From Verrucomicrobiota bacterium (lineage in GTDB: Bacteria > Verrucomicrobiota > Kiritimatiellia > UBA8416 > SLMC01): DNA of 35,948 nucleotides. Within the stretch, counting starts at the first letter, position 1. Each line of letters opens with the position of its first letter. The DNA lies in contig JASEHE010000006.1 in NCBI GenBank assembly GCA_030018915.1, forward strand, positions 1 to 35,948. Direction: 5' to 3'. The position numbers and the translations under genes were made by a program. Positions 2,124 to 23,952 of the stretch are shown piece by piece. The notes beneath the pieces were generated by a model that saw only the letters and a program-made list of their open reading frames with translations, did not search any database and was not told the origin of the DNA.

Positions 2124-2136
2124 GATGTCGGTCTCC

Positions 2137-3425: not shown

Positions 3426-3428
3426 AAT

Positions 3429-5401: not shown

Positions 5402-5586
5402 AGAGGAAAGGACACCCCTCGACTGCCCTCGCCTTTGGGCGCAGCCGAACCGCGCATTTCGCGTAGCCGACCTACGGTAGATGCAGGGAGGACGGATGCA
5501 AGCGAAGCTGAGAGGTGCCCTAAAATCGGACACCTGAAAAGAAAAACCGCCCTCCGTTCGATCGGTCATGACTGCGCCCAAGAGGG

Positions 5587-6200: not shown

Positions 6201-6476
6201 TCACTTGGGAAAGACCGCCAAAAAAGCTCTGAATTCCTTCAAGGCCAAGAGCAGCCCAATGAACATGCCAAAGGCAGATAGAACGCCCATCGTTATCGTT
6301 CCGAGACGGCCGGTAGCACGACGCTCCGCCTTGACTCCATGCGCCTCATCAGATTCGATATGAGCGTTGAGTTTCGACGAGAGGCCATCAAGCCTTTTCT
6401 CGTGAGTCTCAGTCCGTTCGTCGATGCGGATTAGAAGCTCGCGATCGCTCATATCCTCGCGCTTTTTATCACTCAT
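6201..6476 (-). CDS. XhlA-like protein: coiled coil plus C-terminal membrane segment
   Basis: A 91-aa protein from ATG 6476, overlapping the fibre gene's TGA (ATGA). Residues 1-55 form a charged coiled coil (ELLIRIDERTETHEKRLDGL). Residues about 60-83 are one membrane span (GTITMGVLSAFGMFIGLLLAL), leaving a short tail KEFRAFLAVFPK. This layout is that of XhlA/haemolysin-type holin partners and many phage lysis-cassette proteins placed right after tail fibre genes. No endolysin is adjacent, so its partner is unknown. Confidence 0.7.
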   Translation of the reverse strand: MSDKKREDMSDRELLIRIDERTETHEKRLDGLSSKLNAHIESDEAHGVKAERRATGRLGTITMGVLSAFGMFIGLLLALKEFRAFLAVFPK

Positions 6477-7312
6477 GGTGCCAGAACCTCGGCGCGAATG
6501 TCGCCAGTAATCGTACCGGCGCTTGGAGTGATCGTAAGTTTCGTAAGTTGTGCTGATCCGCTATATTCGCCACCGCCGGCGCATTCTCCGGCTGTTGCCA
6601 CACTGGCACCGCTCCAAATGGTGTAGGTTGATGTTATTCGCTGGTCTCGGCGATTTGGATACACTATCATCGTCACGGCACCGTAGTTTCCAGAGCCGAG
6701 ACCTCCGCCAGAATTGAACAGACGGATCGCCACCGCACCCGTCCCATAAGATGCAAACCCAACACCGTCGGTATAAACGCCATAGCATGCGTATTTATAA
6801 TTTGCGCCTGTATCATCGTTGAAAGTCATGTCCAAAACCGCATTTGCACTATTCTGAATATAGTTGATCGTGAGTCGAATAGGAAAGCTCGAACTCAAAT
6901 TCGTAAAAGCTACTGACGTAGCGGCGCTGACAGTCTTTGTTGAGACAATAGACCACCCACCGAGAATAATGCCATCGAAGCGCGCGGCCGTCGTGAATGC
7001 GCCGCCATTGATTGTCAAGGTTGAGACGAAGGTCGCAGGACTTGCATGGTACTCAGAGGCCGTGAATGTGGATACCCCATTAAATTTACTTGTGCCGCCC
7101 CAAGTATTGACGCCAGTCCATGAGTTGTCGCCAGCGAGTGTCGGCAGATCCCTGACGTCGGCGTTCGTTTTCCGCATCGCGTCGGCCAATGCTCGATTAT
7201 TCTGATTAACCGCGGCTGCATCGCGAATGTCGCGCGTCTCGGTCAATGTGTAAGGAGGGTTCTGGGACCACGCCGGGAGCGTAAAAGCCAGCGCTAGGAG
7301 TACTGGGCTCAC
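6473..7312 (-). CDS. Tail-fibre-like protein with Sec signal peptide
   Basis: A 279-aa protein from GTG 7312 that overlaps the stop of the 2088-aa gene (GTGA). Residues 1-16 (MSPVLLALAFTLPAWS) form a signal-peptide-like stretch with a likely cut near AWS or WSQ. Then come NQNNRALADAMRKTNADV and TLAGDNSWTGVNTWGG, typical of the stalk start of phage fibres. Next are beta-rich Thr/Ser/Gly repeats (TFVSTLTINGGAF) and a C-terminal beta domain. Only two cysteines are present (ACYG and GECAGG). The place after the ejection proteins and before small membrane proteins fits a receptor-binding fibre. The signal peptide is not expected for a normal phage fibre. Confidence 0.72.
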   Translation of the reverse strand: MSPVLLALAFTLPAWSQNPPYTLTETRDIRDAAAVNQNNRALADAMRKTNADVRDLPTLAGDNSWTGVNTWGGTSKFNGVSTFTASEYHASPATFVSTLTINGGAFTTAARFDGIILGGWSIVSTKTVSAATSVAFTNLSSSFPIRLTINYIQNSANAVLDMTFNDDTGANYKYACYGVYTDGVGFASYGTGAVAIRLFNSGGGLGSGNYGAVTMIVYPNRRDQRITSTYTIWSGASVATAGECAGGGEYSGSAQLTKLTITPSAGTITGDIRAEVLAP

Positions 7313-10300: not shown

Positions 10301-13300
10301 ATCATCATCTCGCCTGTCGCCGGATCGAAATGGCCTTTTCCCCCTTTGCCCTCGTATTCCAGGAACGTGACGTTTTCTGGAATATTCAGCTTCGCACGAA
10401 GTTCGCGCATGCGCTCCCACCACGCCATAGTGTCGATGCGCTTGAGCATTGTCGTCGCGAAGGAGCGGCGCTTATCATCGGCGCTCTGGATCGGCGGCTC
10501 GCGAGGCGGAAGTTGCTGCTCGCGGCCGGTCAATAGATCGCCGAGGCGAGGGGGAGGCGGCTCCATGTCGGCCAGCGGGCCTTCCGTTTCCGGAATCTCG
10601 CGACGCTCCCAGAGTCCAGCTTCGCGCGCTTCTCCCGCGAGCGGCGGCTCAGCCGTGAAGATATCATCGCCATGGAATTTCGTGTAAGGCGTCAGGACCG
10701 AGACCGGCTTGCCTTTGACCCTGCCAATGAGTTCGGCATTCTTGTTGATGTGCCATTCCACGTCAGGATGGCGATTCACGATCGAGATGAAGCGGAGCTG
10801 GTCATATATGACGTAGCGGCCGTCGGCCGTCTCGAATACGGCCAGCGGGGGTCGCCCCGATCCATTGGTCAGCGAAGGGTCGATCGGTACCGGAGAGACG
10901 CCTTCGATGGATGATTCCTGCGCGGCGTAATACAGCAGTTTCGCAGATTTGGCTTCAGCATCGGCTTTGGCGACTACTTTTTCCAGTTCAGCGCGCGATA
11001 TTGCCCTGTCGAGTTTCTTGATCTTGCCGCCCGTCGCCTCGCCCTGGATGATGACCCGGCCATCCGTGATCCAGCCGCCGCCATCGACCGTGACGAGCGG
11101 GTCCATACGCTCTTTGCGCGCCGCCGTGTAAATGAGCTTCTGGAGCGATACTTTCTGCTTGCCCAGCAGAGCCCTTTCGGGAAGCTGCTTGAGGCGCGCG
11201 CGCAAGTCATCAAGGGCTTCTTTGGTCGCCTTGACCTTAATGCCGCCGTCGATTTTAATCTCCACGACAGGAGCGCCTTCTTTGATGCGTTCGTAGGATT
11301 TCTCGGGCTTGGCCTTGGCTAGGTGCGCCTCGACCTCGGCTAGCGCTGCGACCTTGCGCTGTTTGGTGATGACCTCGGCGGTCATCGTTGGGGCGGGCAC
11401 CAGAGGAACCTGAATCGCGGGCCTAGGCAGGGCTGGGGCTGCGGGCTCTCCGGTGGGCGGAATTGCTGCGGGAACCTGTCTGGCCACGCCCTCAATCTCC
11501 CGGCGCATCGCGTCGGCCGGCTCTTCGCCAGCGGCATCCATTACCTCCGACCAGGAACCCTCATAGGTGCTCTTGGTGGATGCGAGCTGTTCTTTGACCT
11601 TCTGGAGCTTCTTGCCTTTGATCTTGCCGGTGGCGAGTGCGGCCTCAAGTTCCTGGATGGCCTGCCAACGGCCGATCTGTTCGGCTCTGGTGGCAGCCAA
11701 GAGGGCGGCCAGCTCATCGCCCTCGTAGGCTGATTCAGCCCTAGCGCCGGATGGCACTTCGGTGGGAGGTATTTTAGGGGCCACAGCGGGGCCAGGGATG
11801 GCGCCGGGTGCGCTCGGAGGCGGCGCGGCGGGTTCAGGCTCCGGGCCGCCTTCAGGCGGCTCCTGGGGCATTTCTGGGCGTTTTAGACCCGCCAGCTTCT
11901 TGTATTCGGCATTGAGCTTGGAAAGTTCAGTCTTAAACCGTCGCCTTTGGTTGATTTCGCCAGCCGTAGCCTTGCCCTCACGAGCCTGAATAGCCTGGTC
12001 GATCCTGAGAAGCGCCTGGTTGATCTCATTGAGTCGGCGGTCTAGTACGGTCTTGCGGCCCATGGCAGCCGGGGGCACCGCGGGGCGCTCTTTCCCGGGG
12101 ATTCCGGGAGCAACAGCCTTCGGTGGGGCCAATTCTGGCCCTTTCGGGGCCAATTTAGGCGTGATAGCTGGCTTGGCGGGCTCTGGGCCCAAAGAAAGCT
12201 GCTCCGGCTTGAGATAATAGCGCTCGCCGTCAGGAGCTTCCACGACGTAGCGCTTGCTCGCTGGATTCCAGCCTACGGCGCGGACCTGGACATTCTTGCC
12301 GGCAGGCCCCCTGATCGTCTTGATCGCTTGGCCAAGCTTCAGCTTGAGGGGATTGCGGTCAGGCGGTTCTGGGGCCAGCGCTGCCGGCGAAATTGGCACT
12401 TCTGGGACCATCACCCCGGGGCCCATGGCTAATTCGCGCATGGCCGTGTCTCGGGCAGCCTGAACCTGTTCTGGAGTGAGCTTTACTTCCCCCGCACCAG
12501 CCACATGACCCTCTTCGACTGGATAAATGCCTTTCGGCTTCAGGAGTCCTTGGATGCGCGCGAAACTGACCTTGGCCGCCTCGGCCAGGCTCATCCTACC
12601 ATCAGCGACCTGGCTGCGTATCTCTGGGGGGACCAAACCCGGCATTTCCGGTGAGATTATGTCCCCACGGCCGCCGACACCGGGATTTCTAATTCGTGAG
12701 CGCAACTCATTGAGTTCCAACTTTATCCTCGCCCGGATAGACGGCGCCATGCGTCCCCAGGCCGCAGAGACAGCCTCAGATGCCCCATGGATGCCGACGC
12801 CAAGGGCCGCGCCAGCGAGCATGCCTTCCTGAACATCCTCAGCCTTGACCTGACCATGGACTGCCATTTCGTTCAAAGTGGCAAAGACTCCGCCCACGGC
12901 GGCGCCTTCTACTCCAGAAACCGTCAGGGCCGTGAGGAGACGCGGCGCCGCGGTGCCGAACATGGCCCCGGCGCCTGCGAGTCCGAGACCCGCCGCCATG
13001 CGGACTGGCGCTCCAACAGCCAAGCCGAGAGGCAAGTCTCCAATGATGGGCCCGGCGATTGATGCCGCAGTCTCGAGACCGCCCTCCGGAACGAATTCAG
13101 GCTTGACGGCTTCAGCGGCGCGAGCAAAAGCCGGACCGAGACCCTGCGGTAGATTAGCCAGGCCCACGAAGCCGCCGCGCCAGCCTCTACCCGGAGTCCC
13201 TAGTATCTGCGAAATGCGCTGGAAGAGGCCGGTCATCTCCGCGTCAGTCGGACCGCGCTTGGTCGGGTCTTGAGGAAGTTTCGGCTCTGGTTCAACGCCA

Positions 13301-13575
13301 GTCAGAGTTGGCACCTCCATCGGGGTGGGCTCGACGGCCGCTTTTCTCGGATTGAGCGAAGCCGGATCGGTCCAGATTTCGGCTGGCATCTGGAAATTCG
13401 TCAGCCGATTGCGGAGATCGGCGAATGGAATATCACGCTCTTTCGCGGCTCGGAATATTTCCGGGAGTGCGGCGCGCATCTCCGAGCGCACTTGGTCAAG
13501 CGTGTAGCCGGAGTCGAGCGCGAACTTGACGAGCGAGTCCCAACTTGTACCCGAGGAGCGGGCGGCGACCGGCAT
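7309..13575 (-). CDS. Giant ejection/internal virion protein with zincin motif (2088 aa)
   Basis: ATG 13575 has GAGGAG upstream. It stands in the T7 gp16 position, last of three internal proteins. In order: a helical N-terminus; Gly/Ala hydrophobic stretches at about 165-260 that could insert in membranes; long Pro/Ala/Glu-rich linkers (about 370-720); a zinc-peptidase-like domain with H1104-E-T-G-H1108 and a downstream Glu at 1179 (SHAELLADWF); a long helical region; and a C-terminal part resembling PLxRFG or large polyvalent phage proteins (KLLYTFHGYSFHSVDRIMRQ), again with Gly-rich hydrophobic segments. I found no cysteine in the whole protein. Such proteins are ejected with the DNA and form a conduit through the envelope. 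The zincin could cut host protein or cell-wall peptide, or mature the particle (inference). No lysozyme or transglycosylase motif was seen. Confidence 0.8.
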   Translation of the reverse strand: MPVAARSSGTSWDSLVKFALDSGYTLDQVRSEMRAALPEIFRAAKERDIPFADLRNRLTNFQMPAEIWTDPASLNPRKAAVEPTPMEVPTLTGVEPEPKLPQDPTKRGPTDAEMTGLFQRISQILGTPGRGWRGGFVGLANLPQGLGPAFARAAEAVKPEFVPEGGLETAASIAGPIIGDLPLGLAVGAPVRMAAGLGLAGAGAMFGTAAPRLLTALTVSGVEGAAVGGVFATLNEMAVHGQVKAEDVQEGMLAGAALGVGIHGASEAVSAAWGRMAPSIRARIKLELNELRSRIRNPGVGGRGDIISPEMPGLVPPEIRSQVADGRMSLAEAAKVSFARIQGLLKPKGIYPVEEGHVAGAGEVKLTPEQVQAARDTAMRELAMGPGVMVPEVPISPAALAPEPPDRNPLKLKLGQAIKTIRGPAGKNVQVRAVGWNPASKRYVVEAPDGERYYLKPEQLSLGPEPAKPAITPKLAPKGPELAPPKAVAPGIPGKERPAVPPAAMGRKTVLDRRLNEINQALLRIDQAIQAREGKATAGEINQRRRFKTELSKLNAEYKKLAGLKRPEMPQEPPEGGPEPEPAAPPPSAPGAIPGPAVAPKIPPTEVPSGARAESAYEGDELAALLAATRAEQIGRWQAIQELEAALATGKIKGKKLQKVKEQLASTKSTYEGSWSEVMDAAGEEPADAMRREIEGVARQVPAAIPPTGEPAAPALPRPAIQVPLVPAPTMTAEVITKQRKVAALAEVEAHLAKAKPEKSYERIKEGAPVVEIKIDGGIKVKATKEALDDLRARLKQLPERALLGKQKVSLQKLIYTAARKERMDPLVTVDGGGWITDGRVIIQGEATGGKIKKLDRAISRAELEKVVAKADAEAKSAKLLYYAAQESSIEGVSPVPIDPSLTNGSGRPPLAVFETADGRYVIYDQLRFISIVNRHPDVEWHINKNAELIGRVKGKPVSVLTPYTKFHGDDIFTAEPPLAGEAREAGLWERREIPETEGPLADMEPPPPRLGDLLTGREQQLPPREPPIQSADDKRRSFATTMLKRIDTMAWWERMRELRAKLNIPENVTFLEYEGKGGKGHFDPATGEMMITQDWHNIGTAIHETGHAIDYALGTRFKAKDDPFGLIQKLGKRADPDLERIVRGELKELAQHVRPYYPEAGSFSKDRHWTTYRGSHAELLADWFVAKIVDYQLAERVAPTFTKLWMENLERNPKVAEVVRPFFSTVDNPILKADFGDRSVADMGRKLWSHFKGVDLDPAVKETRRGWLDMIKEEGQRLHNLIATPLSKAQRDPIFAQVYNHLQGYSYASARRETIGLRKADLESFYKLPETSRQRVTRVIRDLDNPQAENYATADELARYPYHLSPDEISAYKNMVSAVRYATDLHIELVRQRRHYYEVNAQEKLRIDREIKEDMLKLGHYFPVMRFGDYVVFARSAADETKIWFNFYKSEMEARREANLLAGLGYTDVEKYPRTELPENFWKAYGNKLSGYQLDMLVNTAKVDRNNPEIQKLLAKAETLRLRDLMHRNWIPGYPHTPENLAESIETFIFSASKQLSKYEALGAARKVRDSKINPTKSRILWDDVNRYISTFEDSGEAEHSRLRHFLYNWELAFKTSFLLNNATQTIQNTWNESARFLKGVQPEIVMGRAYKDAAAIMAKSFRKGSYDLTGFSPLKKAALKRLEQEGVLSGQWTEEMLQERKLPLRHKTDKILGLYGHVSEQFNRLQTGLVALDIAERQGLRGKAAINFAREFIHRTQYAFGPANLPAFISDTGRLKSLTKLLYTFHGYSFHSVDRIMRQYFTKEFDPKVLWRQAAGMFGLAGLEGAPGAGLALWGAWQFGGMDVPMWIRKKFKDKEWIADTILGGLPASALGLDTRRSLGLGEFVPSPRVGQHWIEALGGAALGAPGAIVGRAIKAGSLFAQGEPGRAFENLMPRAISNIMHASRIAQEGVAYPSGEVVVPKEEITSGQILGKAIGYQAWEWSRAYEKRDAKRRFEARTEVRTQRFVERLAKARERKDMKEYQNIIAELRLNNLKAKKERRFEDLIQVSVEAVQNHILKMRGKKALIQVKSAPRQLRPIFREIEAQ

Positions 13576-13578
13576 AGC

Positions 13579-14550
13579 CTATTGCTCCTCTTCTTCAATA
13601 TCCGGGAGAGGTTGTTCCTGCTCTTCTTGAACTGGCGCGAGTGGGCTGGGTGCTGCTCCAAGGATTGCTTCCATGATGGCCTCGCGCAGGCTGGGCTGCT
13701 GATTCTGGACGGCCTGATTTTTCAATCGGCGGAGATTGGCATTAAAAAGTTCATCAAGGCTGGGAATATCCTGGGGCAATGCAGTGATGTCTCTTTTGAG
13801 TATAGCGAGCTGGGCATTGGCCGCCTTCTGCGCCTCGAGTCGTAAGCGCTCTTCCAAGCCAAGACCCGCAGCGACTTTGCCCCCCTTGCCGTAGAATCTA
13901 GTCCAATAGGCTCTGCCGCGCATGGCAGCGTTCCAATCGCGCAACGGAATCGTCTGGTTCTCCAACTCCGACCAGTCCGCATATGGCTTGAGTTGCTCGA
14001 TCAGCCGCCTCGTCAAGACGATGTCGCCAGCCTCCTTCGGCTTGGCTGGAGGAGCAATCACTTCCAATTCCGGGGCCCCTGATCTTGGACGATAGCCAAA
14101 CTGCGCGCCGAGCTGAGACAAAAGCACATCGGGCGGTGGCCCAACATCACGAGCTCCGGCCGGATAAATGTCCGTCGCTGGCTTGCTCATCCCGGGAATC
14201 TGCATCCCAGTGAACGGATCGAGAACGGGAAGCATTGTCGTCTGTGGAATTTCGGCCGGAGCAGCGATGGGACGCAGCATACCACGCGACGCAAGCGCCC
14301 GAGTAAGCGCAGCCATCATAGAATCGGCCTGACGCTCGGAAAGTGAGGCTTGAAGCTGTTCGGCGAGTTCCTTCTTGTGGCCGAACTCTCGCTCTTCGGC
14401 GCGCTCCTTGGCCTTGCCGGCACCGTGCTCGCGTGCGATGCGACCGATGCCCGAAAGCGCCGCTACGAGCGGATCGGCACGACTCGCGTCGATCTGCGCG
14501 GCGAGGCGGTACAGGTCATCCGGTAACCGCGGCCGACCGATGAAGGCCAT
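13579..14550 (-). CDS. Internal virion protein (gp15-position), 323 aa
   Basis: ATG 14550 directly follows the stop of the upstream gene, and the TAG is 3 bp before the giant gene's ATG. The protein is helical, rich in Ala, Leu, Arg and Gln, with a charged coiled-coil segment near residues 40-75 (KAKERAEEREFGHKKELAEQ) and an acidic tail (DIEEEEQ). It contains no cysteine. Its place between the Gln/Met-rich small internal protein and the 2088-aa protein matches the gp14-gp15-gp16 order of T7-like ejection modules. The assignment rests on order and composition, not on a recognised domain. Confidence 0.65.
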   Translation of the reverse strand: MAFIGRPRLPDDLYRLAAQIDASRADPLVAALSGIGRIAREHGAGKAKERAEEREFGHKKELAEQLQASLSERQADSMMAALTRALASRGMLRPIAAPAEIPQTTMLPVLDPFTGMQIPGMSKPATDIYPAGARDVGPPPDVLLSQLGAQFGYRPRSGAPELEVIAPPAKPKEAGDIVLTRRLIEQLKPYADWSELENQTIPLRDWNAAMRGRAYWTRFYGKGGKVAAGLGLEERLRLEAQKAANAQLAILKRDITALPQDIPSLDELFNANLRRLKNQAVQNQQPSLREAIMEAILGAAPSPLAPVQEEQEQPLPDIEEEEQ

Positions 14551-15156
14551 CTAAGCGAGCCATCCACTAGACTTGCCGTAAGCCTGTCCGATGCCAAGAC
14601 CGGCTTCCCAGAGAGCCGCCTGCTGGCCCGCCAGATGTCGCCGGCCTTCGGCCGCGCGCATTTCGCCAAGACCCTGCTGGAACATCTGTATGTCGCGCTG
14701 GGCGGTCATCTCCTCGCCCATCGCCTGGGCGATCATCTGCATCATGGCGCGCTGCGCCGCCACGTCGCCCGACCGTGCGCGGGAGAGAAGCTGGGCGAAC
14801 ATCTGGCTGTTCTGGAGCGCGATCCCGGAGAGCATTTGGGCGATGTTGCCTTGAATCTGCGCGCCCTGCTGGCCCAGAGCCTGCGCCTCGATCGAACCCC
14901 CTGTCAGGCCGCGTCTGGCCATCATGCCCATGAGGTCGGCTTGCTGGCGCTGGCCCGCGGCCTCCATGCCGGCGATCTGCGGGGCGACCATCTGGCCGCG
15001 CTGCGAAAGGATATTCTGCAATTCGGGCATAAACTGCGACTCGGTAGCCGTTTGCTGCGAGAGCATCCTGATGATATTCTCGTAGGAAGGCGCGGTACCG
15101 CCGATTTGTGGAAAAGTGAAAGGCTGGATAGTCTGCGCGTAATCGTGAGCGGCCAT
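14551..15156 (-). CDS. Internal virion protein (gp14-like), Gln/Ala/Met-rich, 201 aa
   Basis: ATG 15156 has GGGAGG about 9 nt upstream, and the stop of the nozzle-like gene lies 4 bp before the start. The product is almost wholly helical and unusually rich in Gln, Ala, Met and Gly (MMARRGLTGGSIEAQALGQQ; QMLSGIALQNSQMFAQLLSR), with no cysteine. The GSIEAQA-type segment is common in podovirus gp14-like internal core proteins that form the outer-membrane part of the ejection channel. Immediately downstream are the gp15- and gp16-position genes, so the three probably form one ejectosome. Confidence 0.7.
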   Translation of the reverse strand: MAAHDYAQTIQPFTFPQIGGTAPSYENIIRMLSQQTATESQFMPELQNILSQRGQMVAPQIAGMEAAGQRQQADLMGMMARRGLTGGSIEAQALGQQGAQIQGNIAQMLSGIALQNSQMFAQLLSRARSGDVAAQRAMMQMIAQAMGEEMTAQRDIQMFQQGLGEMRAAEGRRHLAGQQAALWEAGLGIGQAYGKSSGWLA

Positions 15157-15159
15157 GCC

Positions 15160-18009
15160 TCAATCCTCCCGGAGCGGCCGGTACTGAAGGGCTCCGCGAT
15201 AGAACTTCCAATGCTGTGTACCCGTATTGAGAATGTCGAGACTAATATATCTGCCCGAGACCTGGCCGTCAAGCGGAGCAGGCACGTCGCCGTAGACGAT
15301 GCCGGTGTCCTCATTGAGATAGACGAGCGAAAGCGGGACCGCCGTCACCTTGTCAACATAGGCGGCGATCGTCATACTGACGCTGTCGCTAGCATCGCGC
15401 AAGGGCGAAAATTCGAGTTTGGCGCCGAGGAGCTCCTTGCGCCTGAGCCAATTTCCAGCGTCAAAGTCCTTCGTCCTAATTCGGCTCGTGAAAGCCGCTC
15501 CGGCGTCGTCGTAGCCCGCATAGAGCGAATAGGTCTGGCCGTTATCAGCTCCGTCGCCGATGATAAGACGCTGCGCTGGAGTGAAAGTGAGTGCCGACAT
15601 GGCTGGCATATTGTTCCAAAGCGCCCAGCGATCCCGATAATCGAGCACAAGAGCATGGCTATTGTCGGCTCCGGAGGCGGTTGAAGTCGTGTAAAACAGG
15701 TGGTACTTATGATCGACGATTGCCGAGGCGGTCTCTGGGCGCGAGGCGCCCTCGTTCCAGTTGAAGCTACAATCCTGTAGCGAGATTCCGGAAATCGCTT
15801 GTGTTGCCGATTGGAAATCGAAGAAAGCGCGATAGGCCACAAAAGTCGCCGTGCCGATCGAAATGACGGAATTGTTGACCTGGCTGTTCCAGGTGGCCGT
15901 CGTCCGCGTGACAGCATTACAGGTTGTGCCAGTGGCGACAAAGAGTGAAAGAGTCGCATTTGTTGGGATCGTGAGGCTACACTGGAAAAGGCCCCAGGAA
16001 GTGATCGGGGTTCCGGGATTGCGGCACTGGCTAATGAAGTAGCCGGTCGTCGCCGCCGATAGATTAACTACAGTGATCGAAGCGACTGAGATAGTCTCAG
16101 GTGGCCCGGGCCTGATCGAGTGTTTGAAATACTGTCGCTGCGGCGAAGTGATAGGGACACCTAACGACTGAGAAACCATCGTGGAATAGGTGCCGCCCGC
16201 CGTAGTCGCTGACTGCGTAAAGAAGGTCATTGAAGAAATCGAGCTACTCGTGACCGAGACACCATAGTCGCGCCAGGTCGGCGTCGAAAGGCCGGTGTTG
16301 TATTCCACGGACTGCTGTAGTTCATAGAATGTCGGAAAACGAAAAGAATCATGCTGTGTCTTGGAATCTCCAATCTCGACTTTGATATGCCGTCCGGGAA
16401 GATTACCTGTCTCCGTGACCGACGAGACCAAAATTCCGTCAAGGAATACGGCAGTAAAACCATTTGCGGCACGACTGACGCGAAGCGAGTGATAGTTTCC
16501 ATTTGTCAGCAAGGATACTTGAGTTGTCTTGCAGACGGGATTGAGTACGTCAACGGAGACACAAAACTCTACCCGCGAAGTGTCATTAATGTCCTGGCTG
16601 AGGTTTACCTGAATTGTTTGAAGTGTTGTAGTATCGAGCGAGACCTTTACGACGCTCCACAAAGTATTGAGCGTGGATGTTGACCGAACGATCCAAGACC
16701 ATGTTCCCGTTGATGCCACGGCAGAAGTAGCCGCTGAAGCGACGGAGACAAGAGGGGCGCTAGATCTCGAATTCACAAGTTCATTTGATACTATCGCAAC
16801 AGAGCCGGCCGATGCGGTCCATGTGACGTTGCCAGTCAGATCCCCGTCGTCGAAATTATCGAGATAGTTGGCAATCGCAACCGCAGTCGTATCGACATCG
16901 ACCATCTCCCAGGTGTCATTGTTGAGGCCGCCGGTCGTCACGGCCCAAGTTGTCGGCACGACGTTATTGACGGAGATCGTGGCACTCAGCGGAGCGCCCG
17001 GACCAGATACCGTGAGATTGCCGGCCTCGAAGTCAGCCTGCCGCGTGTCAGTCGCGCTCACCGAATTGCCGGCCGCGCCCACGATCGTCTGGAGGATATC
17101 GTAGATGGGTTCAGAGACCCGCCAGTCGATGGAAGTCCCGCGCAGGCGCTCGACTCCACGCCGTGAGAGCCAGACAAGAGAACCGTCATACTCCTGGACG
17201 GAAGTACTCTCAAGACAACCAACCTCGCGCGAGAGTTCGCGCACTTGGAAGTCGTTATTGTCGAAGCCGTAGAGGCCGAAGAGGCGATTGGACGTGCCGA
17301 TGATATAGGTGTCGCCGTAAGTGCCCATGAGACATGTGATCTTCTCGCCGTCATTGACGCCAGTGATCGGCTGGATGAATGGGCTCGTTGACTGAGAGGC
17401 GGTCGTCCAATCCGCCCCGTCGAGATAGCCAGAGGCATAAAGGCGGCTTTGATTGCTGGCGACATCAGCAACCAAGACGCGATTTCGGAAGTTGCCGATG
17501 AGCCCGCCCAGCGGACCCGCTGATACGCCCATCGTCGATGCCACGACACCGTCCCAGTAGAAAAGCCCATCGATTTTGTTAACGCACCACAATTTTCCTA
17601 GAACCTGCGTGCAGGCTGTCTTTTCTGTGGGCGAAATGGTCCCTGTCAGCGCCGTGAAATTGCCCGAGTTCGTCGCCCGCCAGACCTTATCTGAAGAAAT
17701 GGCGACGACGTAGTGTGTGCCGTCTGGTGCACTGAACTGGTAAAGCCTACGGATCGCGGTCGGGGTAGAAAGCGCTGTGCCGTTGAAGTTGGCATAGCCC
17801 GGCCGTCGTTGAATCCCCAAGTCCCTGTCGTAGGTGACATTGAGTGCCTCCTGCAAGCAGCCATCGGCGATCACATGCGAAGCATAGCGGGTGACAAGAC
17901 CACATTCGGATGGACCCAGAGGAATGCTGGCAGCTTCAGGTGGCGCTGGTATCTCGACGGCCCGAGCCGAGCTGGCTGCGAGCGCCAGGGCGAAGAGAAC
18001 TTGGAGCAT
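15160..18009 (-). CDS. Tail nozzle-like (tail tubular B-like) protein with signal peptide and inserted lectin-like domain
   Basis: A 949-aa protein whose ATG 18009 touches the TAG of the adaptor gene. Residues 1-17 (MLQVLFALALAASSARA) are a clear Sec signal peptide. An N-terminal propeller-like part (about 50-310) contains GIQRRPGYANF, the RRPG motif common near the start of phage nozzle proteins. The last 190 residues (SAIVDHKYHLFY, LVLDYRDRWALW, LIIGDGADNGQTY) match the C-terminal pattern of the same proteins. Between them, at about 380-560, a DNFDDGDLTGNVTW start and a YHSLRVSRAANGFTAVFLDG strand suggest a concanavalin/LamG-like domain. Twelve cysteines fall in sequential pairs (36/51, 133/142, 226/265, 483/493, 662/677, 697/747), as in disulfide-bonded exported proteins. 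A signal peptide on a nozzle is highly unusual. Confidence 0.8.
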   Translation of the reverse strand: MLQVLFALALAASSARAVEIPAPPEAASIPLGPSECGLVTRYASHVIADGCLQEALNVTYDRDLGIQRRPGYANFNGTALSTPTAIRRLYQFSAPDGTHYVVAISSDKVWRATNSGNFTALTGTISPTEKTACTQVLGKLWCVNKIDGLFYWDGVVASTMGVSAGPLGGLIGNFRNRVLVADVASNQSRLYASGYLDGADWTTASQSTSPFIQPITGVNDGEKITCLMGTYGDTYIIGTSNRLFGLYGFDNNDFQVRELSREVGCLESTSVQEYDGSLVWLSRRGVERLRGTSIDWRVSEPIYDILQTIVGAAGNSVSATDTRQADFEAGNLTVSGPGAPLSATISVNNVVPTTWAVTTGGLNNDTWEMVDVDTTAVAIANYLDNFDDGDLTGNVTWTASAGSVAIVSNELVNSRSSAPLVSVASAATSAVASTGTWSWIVRSTSTLNTLWSVVKVSLDTTTLQTIQVNLSQDINDTSRVEFCVSVDVLNPVCKTTQVSLLTNGNYHSLRVSRAANGFTAVFLDGILVSSVTETGNLPGRHIKVEIGDSKTQHDSFRFPTFYELQQSVEYNTGLSTPTWRDYGVSVTSSSISSMTFFTQSATTAGGTYSTMVSQSLGVPITSPQRQYFKHSIRPGPPETISVASITVVNLSAATTGYFISQCRNPGTPITSWGLFQCSLTIPTNATLSLFVATGTTCNAVTRTTATWNSQVNNSVISIGTATFVAYRAFFDFQSATQAISGISLQDCSFNWNEGASRPETASAIVDHKYHLFYTTSTASGADNSHALVLDYRDRWALWNNMPAMSALTFTPAQRLIIGDGADNGQTYSLYAGYDDAGAAFTSRIRTKDFDAGNWLRRKELLGAKLEFSPLRDASDSVSMTIAAYVDKVTAVPLSLVYLNEDTGIVYGDVPAPLDGQVSGRYISLDILNTGTQHWKFYRGALQYRPLRED

Positions 18010-18726
18010 CTAGGGGACCGTGCGGTTAAGCGGCATCCCAGGCGTCAGGCCCGGACGGTAGCTCGGCCGGTCGTTGATCTCCCTCCGAAAACGATCGAGA
18101 CCGTCCTTGAAGAGTCCGAGATAGAGGCCGGCGAGGTCCGCTCGGCCGTCGATAGCCGCCATGTGCCCAGCGGCGTAGTAGGCGAGGAAATGATGATGAG
18201 GATTAAATTCAGCCGTGCCGCCGAACGGCTCGTCGGTCGTCGCCTTCATGTTGGTCGTCTGAGCCCAATATTCGTATCGGACCGTTCCGGTCGATTGGCC
18301 CGTGTCGGGCCAGGGATAAAAAGCGATCTTGGTCCGGCTCGAAAAGTTGATGTAGTAGGATGTCGGCTGCCCCTTGGCTTCGATCCAGTTCCAGCCCACC
18401 TTGCCGGCGAGAGCCTCGGGAGTCGTCTCTCCAAGCTCGCGATATTTCCAGGTGACGCGAGCGATCTGAAGAAAGTCGGACGGTAGAGCATAATAAGTCG
18501 TCCCAGCCGAGGTTTCAAAGAGCGAACTCTTGCGGATAGCCTTAACGTCCAGATTGGCGACGCGCTGGGCCTCATTGAGCCAGCCGTCAATGGTGGCGGT
18601 CGAGAAGCGCAGGCGGTTGCCATTGTCTAGAGCGAGGGCACGCGACTCAGTGCGGAGGTCCGCGAGCGTGAGCGCGTCAGCCGCGCTCGGCAACCACAGA
18701 ACCAAGATGAGAAGAACGCCGTTCAT
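18010..18726 (-). CDS. Tail adaptor-like (tail tubular A-like) protein with signal peptide
   Basis: The start is ATG 18726 (238 aa), which overlaps the upstream TGA and has GGAG upstream; an ATG 69 nt earlier has no such support. Residues 1-19 (MNGVLLILVLWLPSAADAL) form a Sec signal peptide with a likely ADA cut. The mature part is typical of head-tail adaptor or tail tubular A proteins: LADLRTESRALALDNGN, ATIDGWLNEAQRVANLD, then YALPSDFLQIARVTW and a FNPHHHFLAYYAAGHMA helix near the end. It lies directly upstream of the nozzle-like gene, the standard adaptor-nozzle order. No cysteine was noticed. The export signal conflicts with the usual cytoplasmic assembly of this part. Confidence 0.78.
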   Translation of the reverse strand: MNGVLLILVLWLPSAADALTLADLRTESRALALDNGNRLRFSTATIDGWLNEAQRVANLDVKAIRKSSLFETSAGTTYYALPSDFLQIARVTWKYRELGETTPEALAGKVGWNWIEAKGQPTSYYINFSSRTKIAFYPWPDTGQSTGTVRYEYWAQTTNMKATTDEPFGGTAEFNPHHHFLAYYAAGHMAAIDGRADLAGLYLGLFKDGLDRFRREINDRPSYRPGLTPGMPLNRTVP

Positions 18727-19142
18727 CGCCGGTCTCCCACGCAGGGGTAATCGCGTTCGCACATCGCGGCCTCCCCTGGATTGCGGCGGTGGCAATCTTC
18801 ATGGAGTAGGCAACCCAGGAAGCTCCGGCCAATCGCGATGACCGGCTTGCGCCCGTACCACGCGGGACGGCCGGAGTAGCAGGCCCGCGGATAGTAGTTG
18901 ACCGGCCCGCCACTGTCCGTCTTTCCCTTGATCCAAACATGCGGGGACTGGACGCTCCGGCTGGCCCGCCTGCAATGTCGTCCCACCGCTGCGTCATCGC
19001 AGGCGATGACATGGAAGTCGGGATAGGTCGTTCGAGTGCAGTCCGCGCGGTGGAAGGCCGAGAACCCGCAGCCCAGGAGAGCGGCCAGAGTGATAATGGA
19101 AGCGATGAAGAACGCGACAATTCGCGCCATGCGCTCGTTCAC
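18723..19142 (-). CDS. Cysteine-rich putative lipoprotein with HExxH motif
   Basis: A 139-aa protein from ATG 19142, overlapping genes on both sides by ATGA. Residues 8-25 (IVAFFIASIITLAALLGC) make a lipoprotein signal with C25 as the likely lipidated cysteine (LLGC). The mature part has eight further cysteines and ends with FLGCLLHEDCHRRNPGEA, where H114-E-D-C-H118 is an HExxH zincin motif. A tiny exported metallopeptidase, or a non-enzymatic Zn/disulfide protein, is possible. It sits between fibre-like and adaptor genes, so it could be a virion or envelope component rather than a lysis gene. I recognise no exact family. Confidence 0.65.
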   Translation of the reverse strand: MNERMARIVAFFIASIITLAALLGCGFSAFHRADCTRTTYPDFHVIACDDAAVGRHCRRASRSVQSPHVWIKGKTDSGGPVNYYPRACYSGRPAWYGRKPVIAIGRSFLGCLLHEDCHRRNPGEAAMCERDYPCVGDRR

Positions 19143-19513
19143 GGGATGCGCTCCACGGTCTTCGCCCGCTCCGCGAGCCGCTTGAATTCGGCGAGCTGCT
19201 CCGGGGTCAAATTGATGACCTCGATCCGAGACGTAGGCCCCGTCTTCGCCAAGTTGATTTTCTCAACACGTAGGCAGGGCGAGGCGCACCCGGTCAAGGA
19301 TAGAAACAAGGCGAGCCAGACAGAGCAGGCGGACCGTATACCACCTGCATCCTTCACGGCGCACTTGTATCCGGTATTGCCTGCGGAATCAGCGTCGAAT
19401 GATTGCCACAGCAAGCCGTGCGCTCGGCATCGCCCTCGATTCCATTTGCGGCGTCGGGCATATGGGTAGGCTCCGGTCATAAGAAGAAGAACGGCAAGTA
19501 AAATTAGTTGCAC
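19139..19513 (-). CDS. Membrane/lipoprotein, 124 aa, with a possible internal lipoprotein start
   Basis: The longest reading starts at GTG 19513, overlapping the fibre gene's end by 10 bp, and stops in an ATGA overlap with the next gene. Residues 1-15 (MQLILLAVLLLMTGA) are a membrane or signal segment, followed by a basic stretch (RRRKWNRGRCR). A second hydrophobic stretch at about 65-76 ends in LSLTGC, a good lipobox. An in-frame GTG at 19357 (VKDAGGIRSAC) would make a free-standing lipoprotein of about 72 aa, ending in a charged helix (TPEQLAEFKRLAERAK). This resembles nested Rz/Rz1-type spanin coding, but in one frame. Which start is used cannot be decided here. Confidence 0.6.
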   Translation of the reverse strand: MQLILLAVLLLMTGAYPYARRRKWNRGRCRAHGLLWQSFDADSAGNTGYKCAVKDAGGIRSACSVWLALFLSLTGCASPCLRVEKINLAKTGPTSRIEVINLTPEQLAEFKRLAERAKTVERIP

Positions 19514-21393
19514 GTGTTCGCCACCGCCGCCGCGACTTGGTACCAGTCCGTCCCATCACTGCACACTCGCACCACATCACATGGCGTGAGTGCTACGTCA
19601 GCGCCTGCTGCCGTGTTGAAGTTGGCGTTCGTGTCGAGGGTGATCGTATCTACGGTGTCGATATTAGTCACGTCCATGCAGCATCCGCGATTCGCCGCTG
19701 CGGGGGCGGTGAATGTGTTTGTGGTGTCCGTGGTAACATTCCCGCCAGCGTTGATAGTTTTGATTCCGCCGCAGGCATCTGCCGTGATCGTGGCGCCCGC
19801 CGCGATAGTTTGTGCCGCGCCGTTGTAGACAATAAGGCTTCCTTGTACTAGGGTGTCTGAGGCGTTGCTCCCTACAACGATGGCGGGACTTGTGCCGTCA
19901 ACAGTCAACGTCCCACTGCTCATGTGAAGCTTAGTACCTGGGTTCCCCCCCGAAGTGCCGGCCCCGATACCAAGACTACCGCTGACTAGTGCCAGGTGAG
20001 TGGTAGCGCCTGAGTCATTACTGAATACCACGCTGGAATTAGCCTTTATTGACAAGCTATGAGCTTTGGTGCCCGGTTGGTGCGCTCCCGCTGCCGTGAC
20101 GTGTTCTAATTCTGTAGATACTGTAGTATCGCCATTGGTAAGGGCCAGGTTGGCATTGTTTCCGACCGCCCCCTTTAGTCGCAGATACGCGAAAGCCGAA
20201 GCTGTAGGTTGGATCGTAACGGAACCGCCCGTCACCGTCATTGTAGTTTCAACCCCCAATCCTCCGCTTGCGACATTTTTCCCACCAATATTGCTTACGG
20301 TTAATGAACTTCCGGCAATGGTGACTTGCGTTGAAATGGTCACGCCTAGTTGCGCCCGAATATCGAAGAGATTAGAACCGCCATCGTTCGTCGTAACGGT
20401 AAGGGTAGAACGATGAACTACGAGCCCTGATGTCCCGCCGATGGTAGCGTCTTTAAGTACGCAAGATGCCGTTCGGCAGAATAAATATGAGGAAGCGGGC
20501 GTGGCGTACCCAAATTCCAAATCAACGCCCAAATAACTATCTATCGTATCGGCATTCACTCCAAACACTTGCAAATGTCCGGCCCGACTGCCCGCTGCCC
20601 CGGTTCCAATACCGAGAGTATTGACTCCAACTCTTGAAATTCCGGCGTCTCTTGTTCCTGCACCATCGGCGCTAGTAGTGAAAGCGAGTCTATCAGACGT
20701 GCCCATGTTGAACGAATTGCCGTCAGAGTACATGCTGCGCCCAGTTGATCCCGCCGACAAGGCATTCGCTTCTGTGTCATACCACGAGATTCCAGCATAG
20801 TTCGTCAGATAGCGGGCCATGACGCCGTTACTGGGCGAGCTTCCGGCTCTAAGCGCGAGCGTTCCACCGGCTCCTCCGGTAACGCTCAGATTACCGCCCA
20901 CAGTCAACCTATCGGCCGCTCCGATCGTGGTGCCCACGGCGAGCGTTTGAACGCGGTGACTCGTGTCCATGAGCTTGTCGGTGTCCACAGAATCTAGGGC
21001 AAGCTTCGCCGTTTGGACGGCCGCGTTGAGGAGTTTGTTCGCCGTGACCGCGCCCGAAGCGAGTTTTTCTGTCCCGACGGCTCCAGTGTCGATCTTGTCG
21101 GAGTCCACAGCAAACGAATCGATCTTCGCTCGGGTCACGGCATTCCCGGCGATCTTTTCAGTACCCACAGCCCCGGTGGCGATCTTGTTCGACTCGACCG
21201 CGAAGCTGATGAGTTTGGCGCTGGTAATGGCGTCGGCTGCGACCTTTTCCGTGTTGACCGCGCCGGTGGCGATTTTGTCGGAATCTACGGAGAAATTGCC
21301 GACGCCACCAGACGCCAAGATCGCGCCGCCGAGGTTTGCGTATGCGGACTGCGGGCCAGCGGCCCACAGGAGAAGAATGAGCCACAAGCCCAT
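19504..21393 (-). CDS. Secreted tail-fibre/spike-like protein with SDK-type repeats (629 aa)
   Basis: The start is ATG 21393, with GGAGG 5-6 nt upstream; the longer reading from 21462 lacks this. Residues 1-19 (MGLWLILLLWAAGPQSAYA) are a Sec signal peptide. Residues about 30-135 hold ten or so imperfect 10- to 11-residue repeats of the form AVxTEKIAxxAVTxxKI, a pattern of trimeric fibre stalks. A long Thr/Ser/Gly-rich beta region follows (STLTVTTNDGG, TISTQVTIAGSSLTV). The C-terminal domain has most of the eight cysteines (GCCMDV, LTPCDVVRVCSDG, ANTCN), probably disulfide-bonded. The repeat region is shared with the 211-aa protein encoded upstream. Likely a receptor-binding or capsid-surface fibre. 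Confidence 0.72.
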   Translation of the reverse strand: MGLWLILLLWAAGPQSAYANLGGAILASGGVGNFSVDSDKIATGAVNTEKVAADAITSAKLISFAVESNKIATGAVGTEKIAGNAVTRAKIDSFAVDSDKIDTGAVGTEKLASGAVTANKLLNAAVQTAKLALDSVDTDKLMDTSHRVQTLAVGTTIGAADRLTVGGNLSVTGGAGGTLALRAGSSPSNGVMARYLTNYAGISWYDTEANALSAGSTGRSMYSDGNSFNMGTSDRLAFTTSADGAGTRDAGISRVGVNTLGIGTGAAGSRAGHLQVFGVNADTIDSYLGVDLEFGYATPASSYLFCRTASCVLKDATIGGTSGLVVHRSTLTVTTNDGGSNLFDIRAQLGVTISTQVTIAGSSLTVSNIGGKNVASGGLGVETTMTVTGGSVTIQPTASAFAYLRLKGAVGNNANLALTNGDTTVSTELEHVTAAGAHQPGTKAHSLSIKANSSVVFSNDSGATTHLALVSGSLGIGAGTSGGNPGTKLHMSSGTLTVDGTSPAIVVGSNASDTLVQGSLIVYNGAAQTIAAGATITADACGGIKTINAGGNVTTDTTNTFTAPAAANRGCCMDVTNIDTVDTITLDTNANFNTAAGADVALTPCDVVRVCSDGTDWYQVAAAVANTCN

Positions 21394-21404
21394 GAGTCCT
21401 CCGG

Positions 21405-21800
21405 TCAGTAGAGTTGCGTTAAGACGAGCCTCGCGCCGGCCGCGGCATCCGAAACGCACCATATCTGGAATGTCTGGTCTATTGCCAGCGTCCAGCCTAG
21501 TCTCGGCCCGATCCGGCGACCGTAGTTGATGTTTCCAGCCGTAGAACTTACGCTGGCCGTGAAGGCGCAGAAGGCGGTATTGGTCGAATCATCGTTGAAT
21601 ATTTCTAGAACGAATCGCTTGACGACACCGTCGAGACCGGAGAGGGCCCGCGTACTGACATCGAGTTGGACGGCCGTCGTGTTGACCAGGACGTTTCGGA
21701 CAGATCCCGTGCCCTTGGCGGTCTCATAGACATGGGTTTGCGCGCTCGCCAAAGACGGGACCATGTCGAGAACGGCGAGCAGCACTAACAACTTGACCAT
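21405..21800 (-). CDS. Exported beta-rich protein, 131 aa
   Basis: I place the start at ATG 21800 (MVKLLVLLAVLDMVPSLASA), 5 bp after the upstream stop, because it gives a clean signal peptide ending ASA before QTHVYETAK. A reading from 22166 in the same frame runs antiparallel to nothing useful and lacks support. The mature part is beta-rich (VRNVLVNTTAVQLDVSTRAL, FVLEIFNDDST) with exactly two cysteines (AFCAF and IWCVSD), suggesting one disulfide. There is no strong SD, so translation is probably coupled. Function unknown; a small virion-surface or fibre-tip protein is plausible from context. Confidence 0.68.
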   Translation of the reverse strand: MVKLLVLLAVLDMVPSLASAQTHVYETAKGTGSVRNVLVNTTAVQLDVSTRALSGLDGVVKRFVLEIFNDDSTNTAFCAFTASVSSTAGNINYGRRIGPRLGWTLAIDQTFQIWCVSDAAAGARLVLTQLY

Positions 21801-21804
21801 GCGA

Positions 21805-22440
21805 TTACTCGCAGTTTCCACAGCCATCGACATGAATGCTGGCTGAGTTCGAGCAGACGCCGAAGCCGCCAGTATTGCCGCCGCGGATGCAGATGATCTT
21901 TCCACTGTCAGGTCCCACTGAGCCCCACATGAGTTTAGAGGTCTGGATTGCGTCGCGGAGAATTTTCTGAGTGTTGACCGAACCAGATGCCAGCCTATCG
22001 GTTTCCACAGCACCCACGGCCAAGTGGCCTTTTTGTACGGCGAGAGTCTGAATCTTTTCCGAGTTAACAGCGTTTCCGGCCAATTTCTCCGAATCCACGG
22101 AGAGTACGGCAAGTTTAGCGGACTGGATCGCCAAATTGGCAATGTCAGCATTGGCCACCGATGCATCGGTCAGACCGCCAGCCGTGATGTGCAACGCCTT
22201 CCAAAGGAGCGATGACGTGCCCAGGTCGGCGTCATTGGTCGTCGTGGGAATGACTCCGCCGGTCGAGTCGATGCAGGCTTCCGCGCCGGACGGTCCAGCG
22301 CACCATATATCGCCGTTGTTGGCGGGCGAGGTAATCCTGGCGAAACTAATGTCCGAGACCGCGGCACCCCAAGTCAAGAGGCAAATCGCCAGGAGGAGGC
22401 AGATCCTCGTTTTCTGCGTCCGGCTCAAAATCCAGTTCAT
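21805..22440 (-). CDS. Exported fibre-like protein with the same SDK repeats, 211 aa
   Basis: ATG 22440 has a perfect AGGAGG 5 nt upstream. Residues 1-34 contain a basic start (SRTQKTR), a hydrophobic core (ICLLLAICLLTWGAAV) and a possible cut near SFA. The middle has several units of the SVDSEKLAGNAVNSEKIQTL type, close to those of the 629-aa protein downstream, so the two probably share ancestry or co-trimerise. The mature region has six cysteines, in DIWCAG, EACID, KIICIR, FGVCS and a CGNC end, consistent with disulfides or metal binding. It is the first of the run of exported proteins after the capsid genes. Confidence 0.72.
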   Translation of the reverse strand: MNWILSRTQKTRICLLLAICLLTWGAAVSDISFARITSPANNGDIWCAGPSGAEACIDSTGGVIPTTTNDADLGTSSLLWKALHITAGGLTDASVANADIANLAIQSAKLAVLSVDSEKLAGNAVNSEKIQTLAVQKGHLAVGAVETDRLASGSVNTQKILRDAIQTSKLMWGSVGPDSGKIICIRGGNTGGFGVCSNSASIHVDGCGNCE

Positions 22441-22449
22441 CCAGTCCTC

Positions 22450-23034
22450 CTAGTATCTCCTGATGCGGCCGCCGGTCCTGACGACTGGCCGGAAGCGCTC
22501 TAGGTTCGGTAGATCGGCGTTATCCGGGTCGAGCCGTCTGGCGAGTTCCTTGTAACGATGGGCCCGGCGTTGGAATTCGGAATTGCCGACTTCCATCGCA
22601 ATCGACTTCTCGCAAGCGCGCATGTACTCCTGCTGCAACTCGTGGTCGTCGCCCTTCGGGTAGCGGCCCATCTCGCGCGAGGTGAGCATGTGCTTACGGA
22701 AGAAGTCCTCATGTTCCCGCATCTCCTTGCAGGCGGATTGGCGTTTGGCGCCTATGAACTTGTGGGCCTGCGGGGACATCGCATCCAGGGCTCGCTGACG
22801 CCGCTTGATGCGAACCTCGATCGCCGAGGTGTCGATATCCTTGATGTGCCCGGGCGACAGATGCGCGTCCGAGTTGTCATCATCGGAGACTCGGATACGA
22901 CCATGAACGGCATTCAGATACCGAGTTTCGCCGGCGATCTCGCCACGCAGGCGCTTTTCTTCCTCTATCGTCAGAAGCGTGAGTGGACGCTTGCGCGGTC
23001 CACTCCGCGTGTTCGCCTTCGCGGTGAGTTTCAT
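22450..23034 (-). CDS. Hypothetical virion-region protein, 194 aa, charged and helical
   Basis: ATG 23034 to TAG 22452-22450, between the major capsid protein and the exported cluster. The product is rich in Arg, Glu and Lys and mostly helical (LLTIEEEKRLRGEIAGETRY; EVRIKRRQRALDAMSPQ; DFFRKHMLTSREMGRYPKGD) and has one cysteine near the middle and one near residue 140. No signal peptide is present, which marks the border of the export cluster. No family was recognised. The place just after the capsid gene is often used by head-completion or small packaging proteins. Confidence 0.7.
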   Translation of the reverse strand: MKLTAKANTRSGPRKRPLTLLTIEEEKRLRGEIAGETRYLNAVHGRIRVSDDDNSDAHLSPGHIKDIDTSAIEVRIKRRQRALDAMSPQAHKFIGAKRQSACKEMREHEDFFRKHMLTSREMGRYPKGDDHELQQEYMRACEKSIAMEVGNSEFQRRAHRYKELARRLDPDNADLPNLERFRPVVRTGGRIRRY

Positions 23035-23061: not shown

Positions 23062-23952
23062 TTAACTCGCGTTGTGGCCATAGACGAACGGCCAATTCAC
23101 GGCGGATACATTGGATGACATATATCCGGCGTGCTTCGAGACGAGAGTATCCATCTCTCCCGCGAAGAAGAACTCCACGGGGTTCCAGTCGTACCATCGG
23201 AGGAAGCGCTTCATCTGGCGCTGGTTGATCATGAACCAGTTGGTCTGATCCGTCAACCAGTTGTGCCACACGGCGAGCTTGTACTTGCCTTCGTGGAAGT
23301 TTGGGTTGTTGATCGCCGTATCGACCTTCCCCTTGGACTTGATCAGCTCGTAAGCCTGCTCCTCCAGATTAGTCGGCACAAGGAGCATGTCCGGGAAAGT
23401 CGCCGCCTGGATGTTGTCGCGGTTGGTCTTGAACTGGATCATGAGCCGCCGCGTCGCCTCGACATTGGCTGGCGAGAAGGCGGAAGTCCCGGAATTGCTC
23501 TGGTTCGAGCCGCCGACATCAGAAGTGTGCGCCGTGTTGCACAAGGACAGCGTGTCCGCCACCGTCGTCGTGCTAAAGGCACCGTTAAAAATGCTGGAGC
23601 CCAGACTCTCCCGCTTGGCCCGGAAGCGTCGCGCGAGTCCCTGGACCTGTTCGCGCACGATGCCGTACATATCGTTGCGTCGAAGCTTCTTGGTCACCTT
23701 AACGCCGAGAGCATACTCGACTTCCTCGGTCGATTTGCGGTAAGACTGCTTGGACTCGTCGTAGGAGATCTCGCCGTCGAATACCGCAACGTCGCCCAGG
23801 TCGCCGATCAGGGCCTCATAGACAATCGCCTGATCTGGCGTTTTCTGATCGAAGAAAGCACCGATCATGCTCGAGAAGTCGCCGTACTCGACCGCGAACC
23901 AATCCGACAGGTCCTTTTGGACGAAGAACGTGTAGTTGCCCTGGTTCAGCAT
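23062..23952 (-). CDS. Major capsid protein
   Basis: A 296-aa protein from ATG 23952 with GGAGGAG upstream. The pattern is that of Mu gpT/HK97-fold head proteins: an N-terminal segment with FAVEYGDFSSMIGAFFDQ; a middle helix with RRFRAKRESLGSSIFNGAFS; FSPANVEATRRLMIQFKTNR; the conserved MLLVPTNLEEQAYELIKSKG followed by NPNFHEGKYKLAVWHNWLTD; and a C-terminal WFMINQRQMKRFLRW. These strand and helix landmarks are common in phage capsid subunits. Its place two genes after the scaffold-like protein supports the call. Length is near the usual minimum for the family. A strong promoter lies one gene upstream. Confidence 0.88.
   Translation of the reverse strand: MLNQGNYTFFVQKDLSDWFAVEYGDFSSMIGAFFDQKTPDQAIVYEALIGDLGDVAVFDGEISYDESKQSYRKSTEEVEYALGVKVTKKLRRNDMYGIVREQVQGLARRFRAKRESLGSSIFNGAFSTTTVADTLSLCNTAHTSDVGGSNQSNSGTSAFSPANVEATRRLMIQFKTNRDNIQAATFPDMLLVPTNLEEQAYELIKSKGKVDTAINNPNFHEGKYKLAVWHNWLTDQTNWFMINQRQMKRFLRWYDWNPVEFFFAGEMDTLVSKHAGYMSSNVSAVNWPFVYGHNAS

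Follow-up and report, generated by a model that had tools for sequence, protein, structure and literature searches.

Predicted Sec signal peptides on the tail proteins of a lineage of SU10-type short-tailed phages

Introduction

In known podoviruses, tail proteins are regarded as cytoplasmic components that seal a newly filled head. In Escherichia phage SU10 (Kuravirus; PDB 7z47), the tail is composed of portal, adaptor, nozzle, and needle (PMC9509320), and in T7 the gp11 adaptor and gp12 nozzle form rings beneath the portal (PMC6702177). Here we describe the tail genes of the window, that is, the whole contig C176 (35,948 bases) of a 2.1 Mb metagenome bin, which reads as an SU10-type short-tailed phage (Caudoviricetes). 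Its tail module (22440-15160, minus strand) encodes an adaptor, a nozzle, fibres, and small proteins that carry predicted Sec signal peptides.

The window resembles SU10 in that its adaptor belongs to the same Pfam family and fold and its portal is weakly similar to the SU10_portal model (28.5 bits, just under the curated cut-off of 30). It differs in that the Pfam adaptor model sets in only at the predicted mature N-terminus of the window protein, and in that the window lineage adds signal peptides on its tail proteins as well as paired cysteines. T7 shares the adaptor and nozzle, but gp11 and gp12 score -14.4 and -10.5 in the signal peptide test applied here. The nearest named relatives by capsid are Alcaligenes phage vB_Af_QDWS535, Roseobacter phage CRP-901, and the Manatee Spring phages (e.g., MW202796, MW202601), whose major capsid proteins (MCPs) are 21-29% identical and whose structural gene order is comparable, but whose tail-region proteins lack signal peptides. 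Virion proteins with Sec signal peptides are known from the filamentous phages, among them M13 G3p, which is exported through SecYEG (PMC8310372), but these represent an unrelated virus type without a head, a portal, or DNA packaging into a capsid. For the tail-hub proteins of tailed phages we found no report of Sec signal peptides in the open-access literature searched, and the passages on phiCbK concern lysis proteins.

Predicted Signal Peptides in the Tail Module

Seven consecutive minus-strand genes (22440-21805, 21800-21405, 21393-19504, 19513-19139, 19142-18723, 18726-18010, and 18009-15160), together with the separate fibre gene at 7312-6473, all start with signal peptide-like or lipoprotein-like segments that score from 9 to 17. 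The preliminary description had counted eight such genes between 15160 and 22440; the run itself holds, but its number is seven. The features are as follows (all on the minus strand; the caret marks the predicted cut).

15160-18009, minus: nozzle (P22 gp10/SU10 nozzle-type stabilisation protein) by profile match, 949 aa, with predicted N-terminal signal peptide
17959-18009, minus: predicted nozzle signal peptide, MLQVLFALALAASSARA^VEIPAP, score 16.6; present in relatives with diverged sequence
18010-18726, minus: head-tail adaptor (SU10 adaptor family), 238 aa, with predicted N-terminal signal peptide; ATG, GGAG upstream, start overlaps the upstream stop
18673-18726, minus: predicted adaptor signal peptide, MNGVLLILVLWLPSAADA^LTLADL, score 9.7
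18723-19142, minus: 139-aa gene with lipobox-like LLGC and an HEDCH motif, read from sequence and score (9.6-11.3); no family match
19139-19513, minus: 124-aa gene with two hydrophobic stretches, of which the second ends in lipobox-like LTGC; score 9.7; start and role uncertain
19504-21393, minus: fibre with SxKIATGAVxTEKI repeats, 629 aa; phrog_892 tail fibre, E 1e-16; GGAGG upstream
21337-21393, minus: predicted signal peptide of this fibre, MGLWLILLLWAAGPQSAYA^NLGGAI, score 10.4
21405-21800, minus: small tail-module protein, 131 aa, 50% identical to L045 7110-7484
21741-21800, minus: predicted signal peptide of the small protein, MVKLLVLLAVLDMVPSLASA^QTHVYETA, score 12.7
21805-22440, minus: fibre-like protein, 211 aa; phrog_892, E 3e-10; strong GGAGG upstream
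22339-22440, minus: predicted signal peptide of the fibre-like protein, MNWILSRTQKTRICLLLAICLLTWGAAVSDISFA^RITSPA, score 10.9
6473-7312, minus: second fibre-type protein, 279 aa, score 9.0
7265-7312, minus: predicted signal peptide of the second fibre-type protein, MSPVLLALAFTLPAWS^QNPPYT

Scores come from a small n-h-c model of our own, which is not SignalP and was trained on 37 Escherichia coli signal peptides; in a leave-one-out test it placed the exact cut in 33 of the 37. Among 126 reference proteins of T7 and lambda the median score is -9.75; 5.6% score above 8, some of which, Bor and Lom for instance, are known to reside in the membrane or to be exported. In the bin, 14 of 111 genes (12.6%) score past 7. 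At their annotated starts, the other 17 scored genes of the window (head, packaging, ejection, and nucleases) score from -4 down to -32, which agrees with the earlier statement that the flanking head and ejection proteins lack signal peptides. By this model the tail genes have the layout of substrates of Sec and signal peptidase I, that is, a short n-region, a hydrophobic core, and small residues at -3 and -1, all at the true N-terminus, and textbook cut motifs are found among them (SARA^VE, ADA^LT, AYA^NL, and ASA^QT). A lipobox with cysteine at +1 is absent from the adaptor, nozzle, and fibres, and is carried only by 18723-19142 and possibly by 19139-19513. Since the same gene families carry signal peptides in relatives (see below), the run in the window is not due to chance.

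The adaptor matches Pfam PF24175 (SU10_adaptor) with an E value of 2.9e-24 over residues 20-218 (87 bits vs. a cut-off of 27). Its structure model (mean pLDDT 66.7) matches the adaptors of SU10 (7z47), GP4, and Pa223 in Foldseek, 8jov among the matches, with E values of 1.6e-4 to 1.3e-3 and TM-scores near 0.45; because these TM-scores are modest, the sequence match carries most weight. Sequence and fold together bear out the identity first proposed for this protein. The PF24175 homology begins at residue 20 and the predicted mature start is residue 19; adaptors outside the lineage likewise start at a position aligned with the predicted mature N-terminus, and LTL(A/S)x(L/V)RTE is kept directly after the cut in the adaptors of closer relatives. 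A related phage, L050, has two tandem adaptor paralogues (12514-13934), each approximately 35% identical to the window adaptor and each with a signal peptide-like N-terminus.

For the nozzle, profile-profile comparison with outgroup nozzles gives a probability of 98.0 and an E value of 1.9e-13 over residues 37-292, tblastn matches are named "phage stabilization protein," and an earlier profile that mixed window and outgroup nozzles also matched solved nozzles. A lineage-only nozzle profile found no match among PDB chains, and the structure model (mean pLDDT 35.6) was too poor and was not used. The proposed nozzle identity stands by profile.

Start Sites

Three of the mechanically listed open reading frames begin too early, and the supported starts are 21800, 21393 (GGAGG upstream), and 18726 (GGAG upstream). 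A Shine-Dalgarno-like sequence precedes 20 of the 31 signal peptide starts examined across the lineage, and the other 11 lack a ribosome-binding site. In 19 of the 31 there is no in-frame ATG, GTG, or TTG from 6 codons before to about 26 codons after the cut, and only four have an in-frame start near the cut with a Shine-Dalgarno-like sequence; neither the adaptor nor the nozzle of the window has an in-frame start codon near its cut. Given so few usable internal starts, a second, signal-free form made by internal initiation is unlikely as a rule, and we mostly excluded such starts for lack of good start codons near the cut. The test for start sites downstream of the hydrophobic stretch in homologs, which the preliminary description had named as evidence that would count against its reading, came out in favor of that reading.

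Conservation in Related Phages

Direct searches of IMG/VR with the window adaptor, nozzle, and terminase gave no close relatives, and the adaptor and then an MCP alignment gave none among GTDB genomes. The lineage was found in IMG/VR by MCP and subsequently by adaptor and nozzle alignments; a mixed adaptor alignment was rejected as a query because it was too diverse. After near-identical contigs were merged, the set comprised 14 phages including the window, 13 of which have tail genes on the contig. They come from many samples and range in GC content from 0.36 to 0.62. The window MCP is 64-74% identical to those of L044-L053, and the more distant capsids are about 48-65% identical to the nearest among those of the window, L045, and L050. 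In an MCP tree with distant outgroups, the long outgroup branches are placed variously, and it is not settled whether the lineage with signal peptides is a single clade.

Across the 14 phages, signal peptides were predicted on 46 of 51 intact tail proteins vs. 1 of 84 head and packaging proteins (Fisher p 3.5e-29, which is only a guide as the proteins are related). By our own model, all 13 phages with tail genes carry them, which answers the check that the preliminary description had proposed for homologs on related contigs. The boundary between signal-free and signal-bearing proteins falls exactly at the joint between portal and adaptor. The single head protein above threshold uses an internal TTG start. 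For the L074 nozzle, the score above threshold comes from the wrong position; the evident signal peptide of this protein is located deeper in the sequence and ends SLALA^QAEE. Every one of the 12 surveyed members of the 21805-22440 fibre-like family has a signal peptide, and the homologs of the second fibre-type protein in L055, L058, L074, and L077 each have their own, which upholds the earlier reading of this fibre.

The signal sequences vary between phages whereas the residues after the cut are kept: LTLxxxRTE in the closer adaptors, QxHVYETA in the small protein, and R(I/V)T in most fibres. Thus, L045 7110-7484 has a signal peptide different from that of the window protein, followed by QQHVYETA, and the L045 positional counterpart of the 19504-21393 fibre begins MYRLAALILLTSSNAFA^LGGGAI. 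The 44-45 kb records of L045, L049, and L050 yielded no additional adaptor or nozzle free of a signal; therefore, the exported copies should be the virion copies.

Outside the lineage, signal peptides are lacking from 19 adaptor and nozzle proteins, those of T7 among them, whose scores run from -0.5 to -18.7. In L019, an SU10-type phage of the same phylum but outside the lineage, one fibre-like gene (17884-19125) bears a strong signal peptide and the adaptor bears none. This is a possible halfway state, and fibre export alone may be wider than the lineage.

Cysteines

Cysteine makes up 1.62% of mature tail proteins vs. 0.48% of head proteins, a 3.4-fold difference (p 5e-33), and the ejection-type families have none. 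Counts are even in 42 of 47 cysteine-bearing tail proteins vs. 23 of 56 head proteins. Outgroup nozzles and adaptors contain 0.85% and 0.70%, respectively. An alignment of 11 nozzles shows paired cysteine columns at (133,142), (226,265), and (677,747); at the pairs corresponding to window positions (80,118), (277,290), and (803,817), both members are absent in the window, and (36,51) and (662,697) also pair when gaps are treated as absence or as missing data. Twelve of the 15 variable nozzle cysteine columns have an exactly concordant partner (shuffle mean 0.39). For Trp, His, and Met columns taken together, which are subject to the same phylogeny, the figure is 2 of 32. More abundant residues fall in between, as they should when there are many columns. 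The adaptor contains one co-varying pair (alignment columns 86 and 241), as does the fibre family (49 and 58). Gain and loss in pairs and even numbers are as expected of disulfides and, with the enrichment in cysteine, serve as independent evidence of export.

Other Genes of the Window

The two short genes within the run, 19513-19139 and 19142-18723, have the appearance of genes for small membrane proteins or lipoproteins and not of virion parts, and no counterparts of either were found in the relatives. With its lipobox-like N-terminus and HEDCH motif, 18723-19142 is probably a lipoprotein or a lysis protein rather than part of the virion, and could be an envelope-located metallopeptidase or a lysis protein. 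No usual start codon lies just ahead of the lipobox-like LSLTGC of 19139-19513. In L045, a lipoprotein-like gene (3322-3840, MINRQGVLLSCALPLLSGC) is flanked by a scaffold-like gene and the capsid genes.

On the minus strand the gene order is terminase (32724-31060), portal (28626-26521), scaffold-like genes, capsid (23952-23062), the tail module, ejection-type genes, and the second fibre. The features outside the tail module are as follows.

31060-32724, minus: terminase large subunit; phrog_2, E 1e-21; 51% identical to L046; no signal peptide
26521-28626, minus: portal; SU10_portal, E 7e-7; 36-54% identical to relatives' portals; no signal peptide
23062-23952, minus: MCP by Pfam and PHROG capsid matches; no signal peptide
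22450-23034, minus: conserved gene separating MCP and tail module; signal peptide absent in 11 of 11 phages
14551-15156, minus: candidate ejection or internal protein downstream of the nozzle; no signal peptide; cysteine absent in every relative
13579-14550, minus: candidate ejection or internal protein; no signal peptide; cysteine absent in every relative
7309-13575, minus: 2088-aa protein, probably internal or ejection; weak phrog_342 and DarB-like matches; score -4.2, no signal peptide

The region 261-4529 encodes an SbcC-like ATPase, a PD-(D/E)XK nuclease, and a Gp3-like (recombination directionality factor-like) protein, and a tRNA-Asn (gtt) lies at 5327-5402 within the phage contig. Tandem repeats of 21 bases at 35857-35932, the extreme contig end, are possibly the cause of the assembly break. 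The bin, which may be the true host, encodes BamA and is therefore diderm, so that a periplasm exists. It also contains a Cas12b gene (L105, 3-4037; bin contig C19; NCBIfam E 9e-252), and no CRISPR array linking host and phage was found on this 5.9 kb contig.

Discussion

Several lines of sequence evidence indicate that the tail proteins of this lineage are very probably exported. We propose that adaptor, nozzle, fibres, and small tail proteins would be made with cleavable Sec signal peptides, cross the inner membrane, be cut by signal peptidase I, and fold with disulfide bonds in the periplasm, whereas portal, capsid, scaffold, and ejection proteins would remain in the cytoplasm, where DNA would be packaged. 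The two halves would join either when the holin opens the inner membrane during lysis, which we slightly prefer, or at a portal attached to the membrane. In L058 the endolysin (Amidase_2, E 4.7e-34) lacks a signal peptide, and hence a holin presumably opens the membrane in that phage; hole formation by the holin would bring heads and tails together. Here we infer the actual cleavage, the periplasmic location, and the time and place of joining, and we favor the sequence as a whole, from Sec export to later joining, with less assurance than export itself. More tentatively still, assembly in two compartments may be obligatory, such that infectious particles would arise only once the inner membrane is breached and holin timing would also control virion completion.

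Several points weigh against this proposal. The evidence comes from sequence, with scores from a model trained on 37 signal peptides. Lys and Arg are often missing from the n-regions in the window, and the signal peptides of its adaptor and nozzle have neither ahead of the hydrophobic core. Five tail proteins fall below the threshold, although four of these (the adaptors of L045 and L077 and the nozzles of L077 and L083) have an evident hydrophobic N-terminus; the fifth, the L049 fibre, has an uncertain start, and KITALVLFLLSGPAMA^QDAPYFPR is readable upstream. The enrichment in cysteine is clear in the nozzle and fibres, but the adaptor is not enriched, and disulfides could conceivably arise only once the cell has lysed. 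Before the tail arrives, a filled head that lacks adaptor and nozzle would need to retain its DNA.

The main rival is the docking of portals on membrane-held adaptors, in which uncut N-termini would anchor the adaptor ring in the inner membrane, its body lying on the periplasmic side, and filled heads would dock from the cytoplasm. Leakage from unplugged heads would thereby be avoided, and cleavage motifs are weak in some N-termini (the adaptors of L086 and L083 and copy 1 of L050). Nevertheless, most N-termini carry A-x-A-type sites, just beyond which the sequence is conserved, and a ring anchor leaves the signal peptides of the fibres and small tail proteins unexplained; we consider this mechanism unlikely. 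According to the preliminary description, export would imply assembly at or across the inner membrane, or a different use of these proteins: signal peptides and cysteine pairs speak for its export component, and membrane assembly becomes one of several possible mechanisms.

It is less probable again that the exported copies serve a role outside the virion, such as receptor blocking or action on neighboring cells, while virions use a fraction that escapes export. Fibre-only export would fit receptor blocking, and L019 has its signal peptide on one fibre only, but adaptor and nozzle have no obvious use outside the virion, the longer records hold no signal-free second copies, and good internal starts near the cut are mostly lacking. 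We regard it as very improbable that the tail proteins are cytoplasmic as usual and that their hydrophobic N-termini serve, for example, insertion into the target envelope at infection. Podovirus tail parts elsewhere do contact membranes during infection, but co-varying cysteine pairs and cysteine enrichment are confined to the tail side, and the n-h-c layout ends at the normal N-terminus of the family. That the hydrophobic N-termini are an artefact, whether of wrong starts, of chance, or of contamination or chimerism in the contig, is scarcely credible, for although 11 starts lack a ribosome-binding site and the window derives from a metagenome bin, the idea is already contradicted by the same conserved pattern in 13 phages of many samples. 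Shine-Dalgarno-like sequences at 20 of 31 starts also speak against it, as does the fact that the adaptor and nozzle of the window have no start codon in frame close to the cut.

The protein families described here are already known; export of a whole tail is new as far as the open-access literature searched shows. If export of the tail proteins is confirmed, a membrane would separate the making of heads from the making of tails, in different cell compartments with late joining. Phage tails would gain disulfides, and virion completion would be tied to lysis or to the membrane. Such a lineage would open to testing when and where the tail must join, for how long a filled head can remain closed without a plug, and whether tail export has arisen elsewhere too. 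The combination of signal peptide and paired cysteines would offer a sequence signature for finding such phages.

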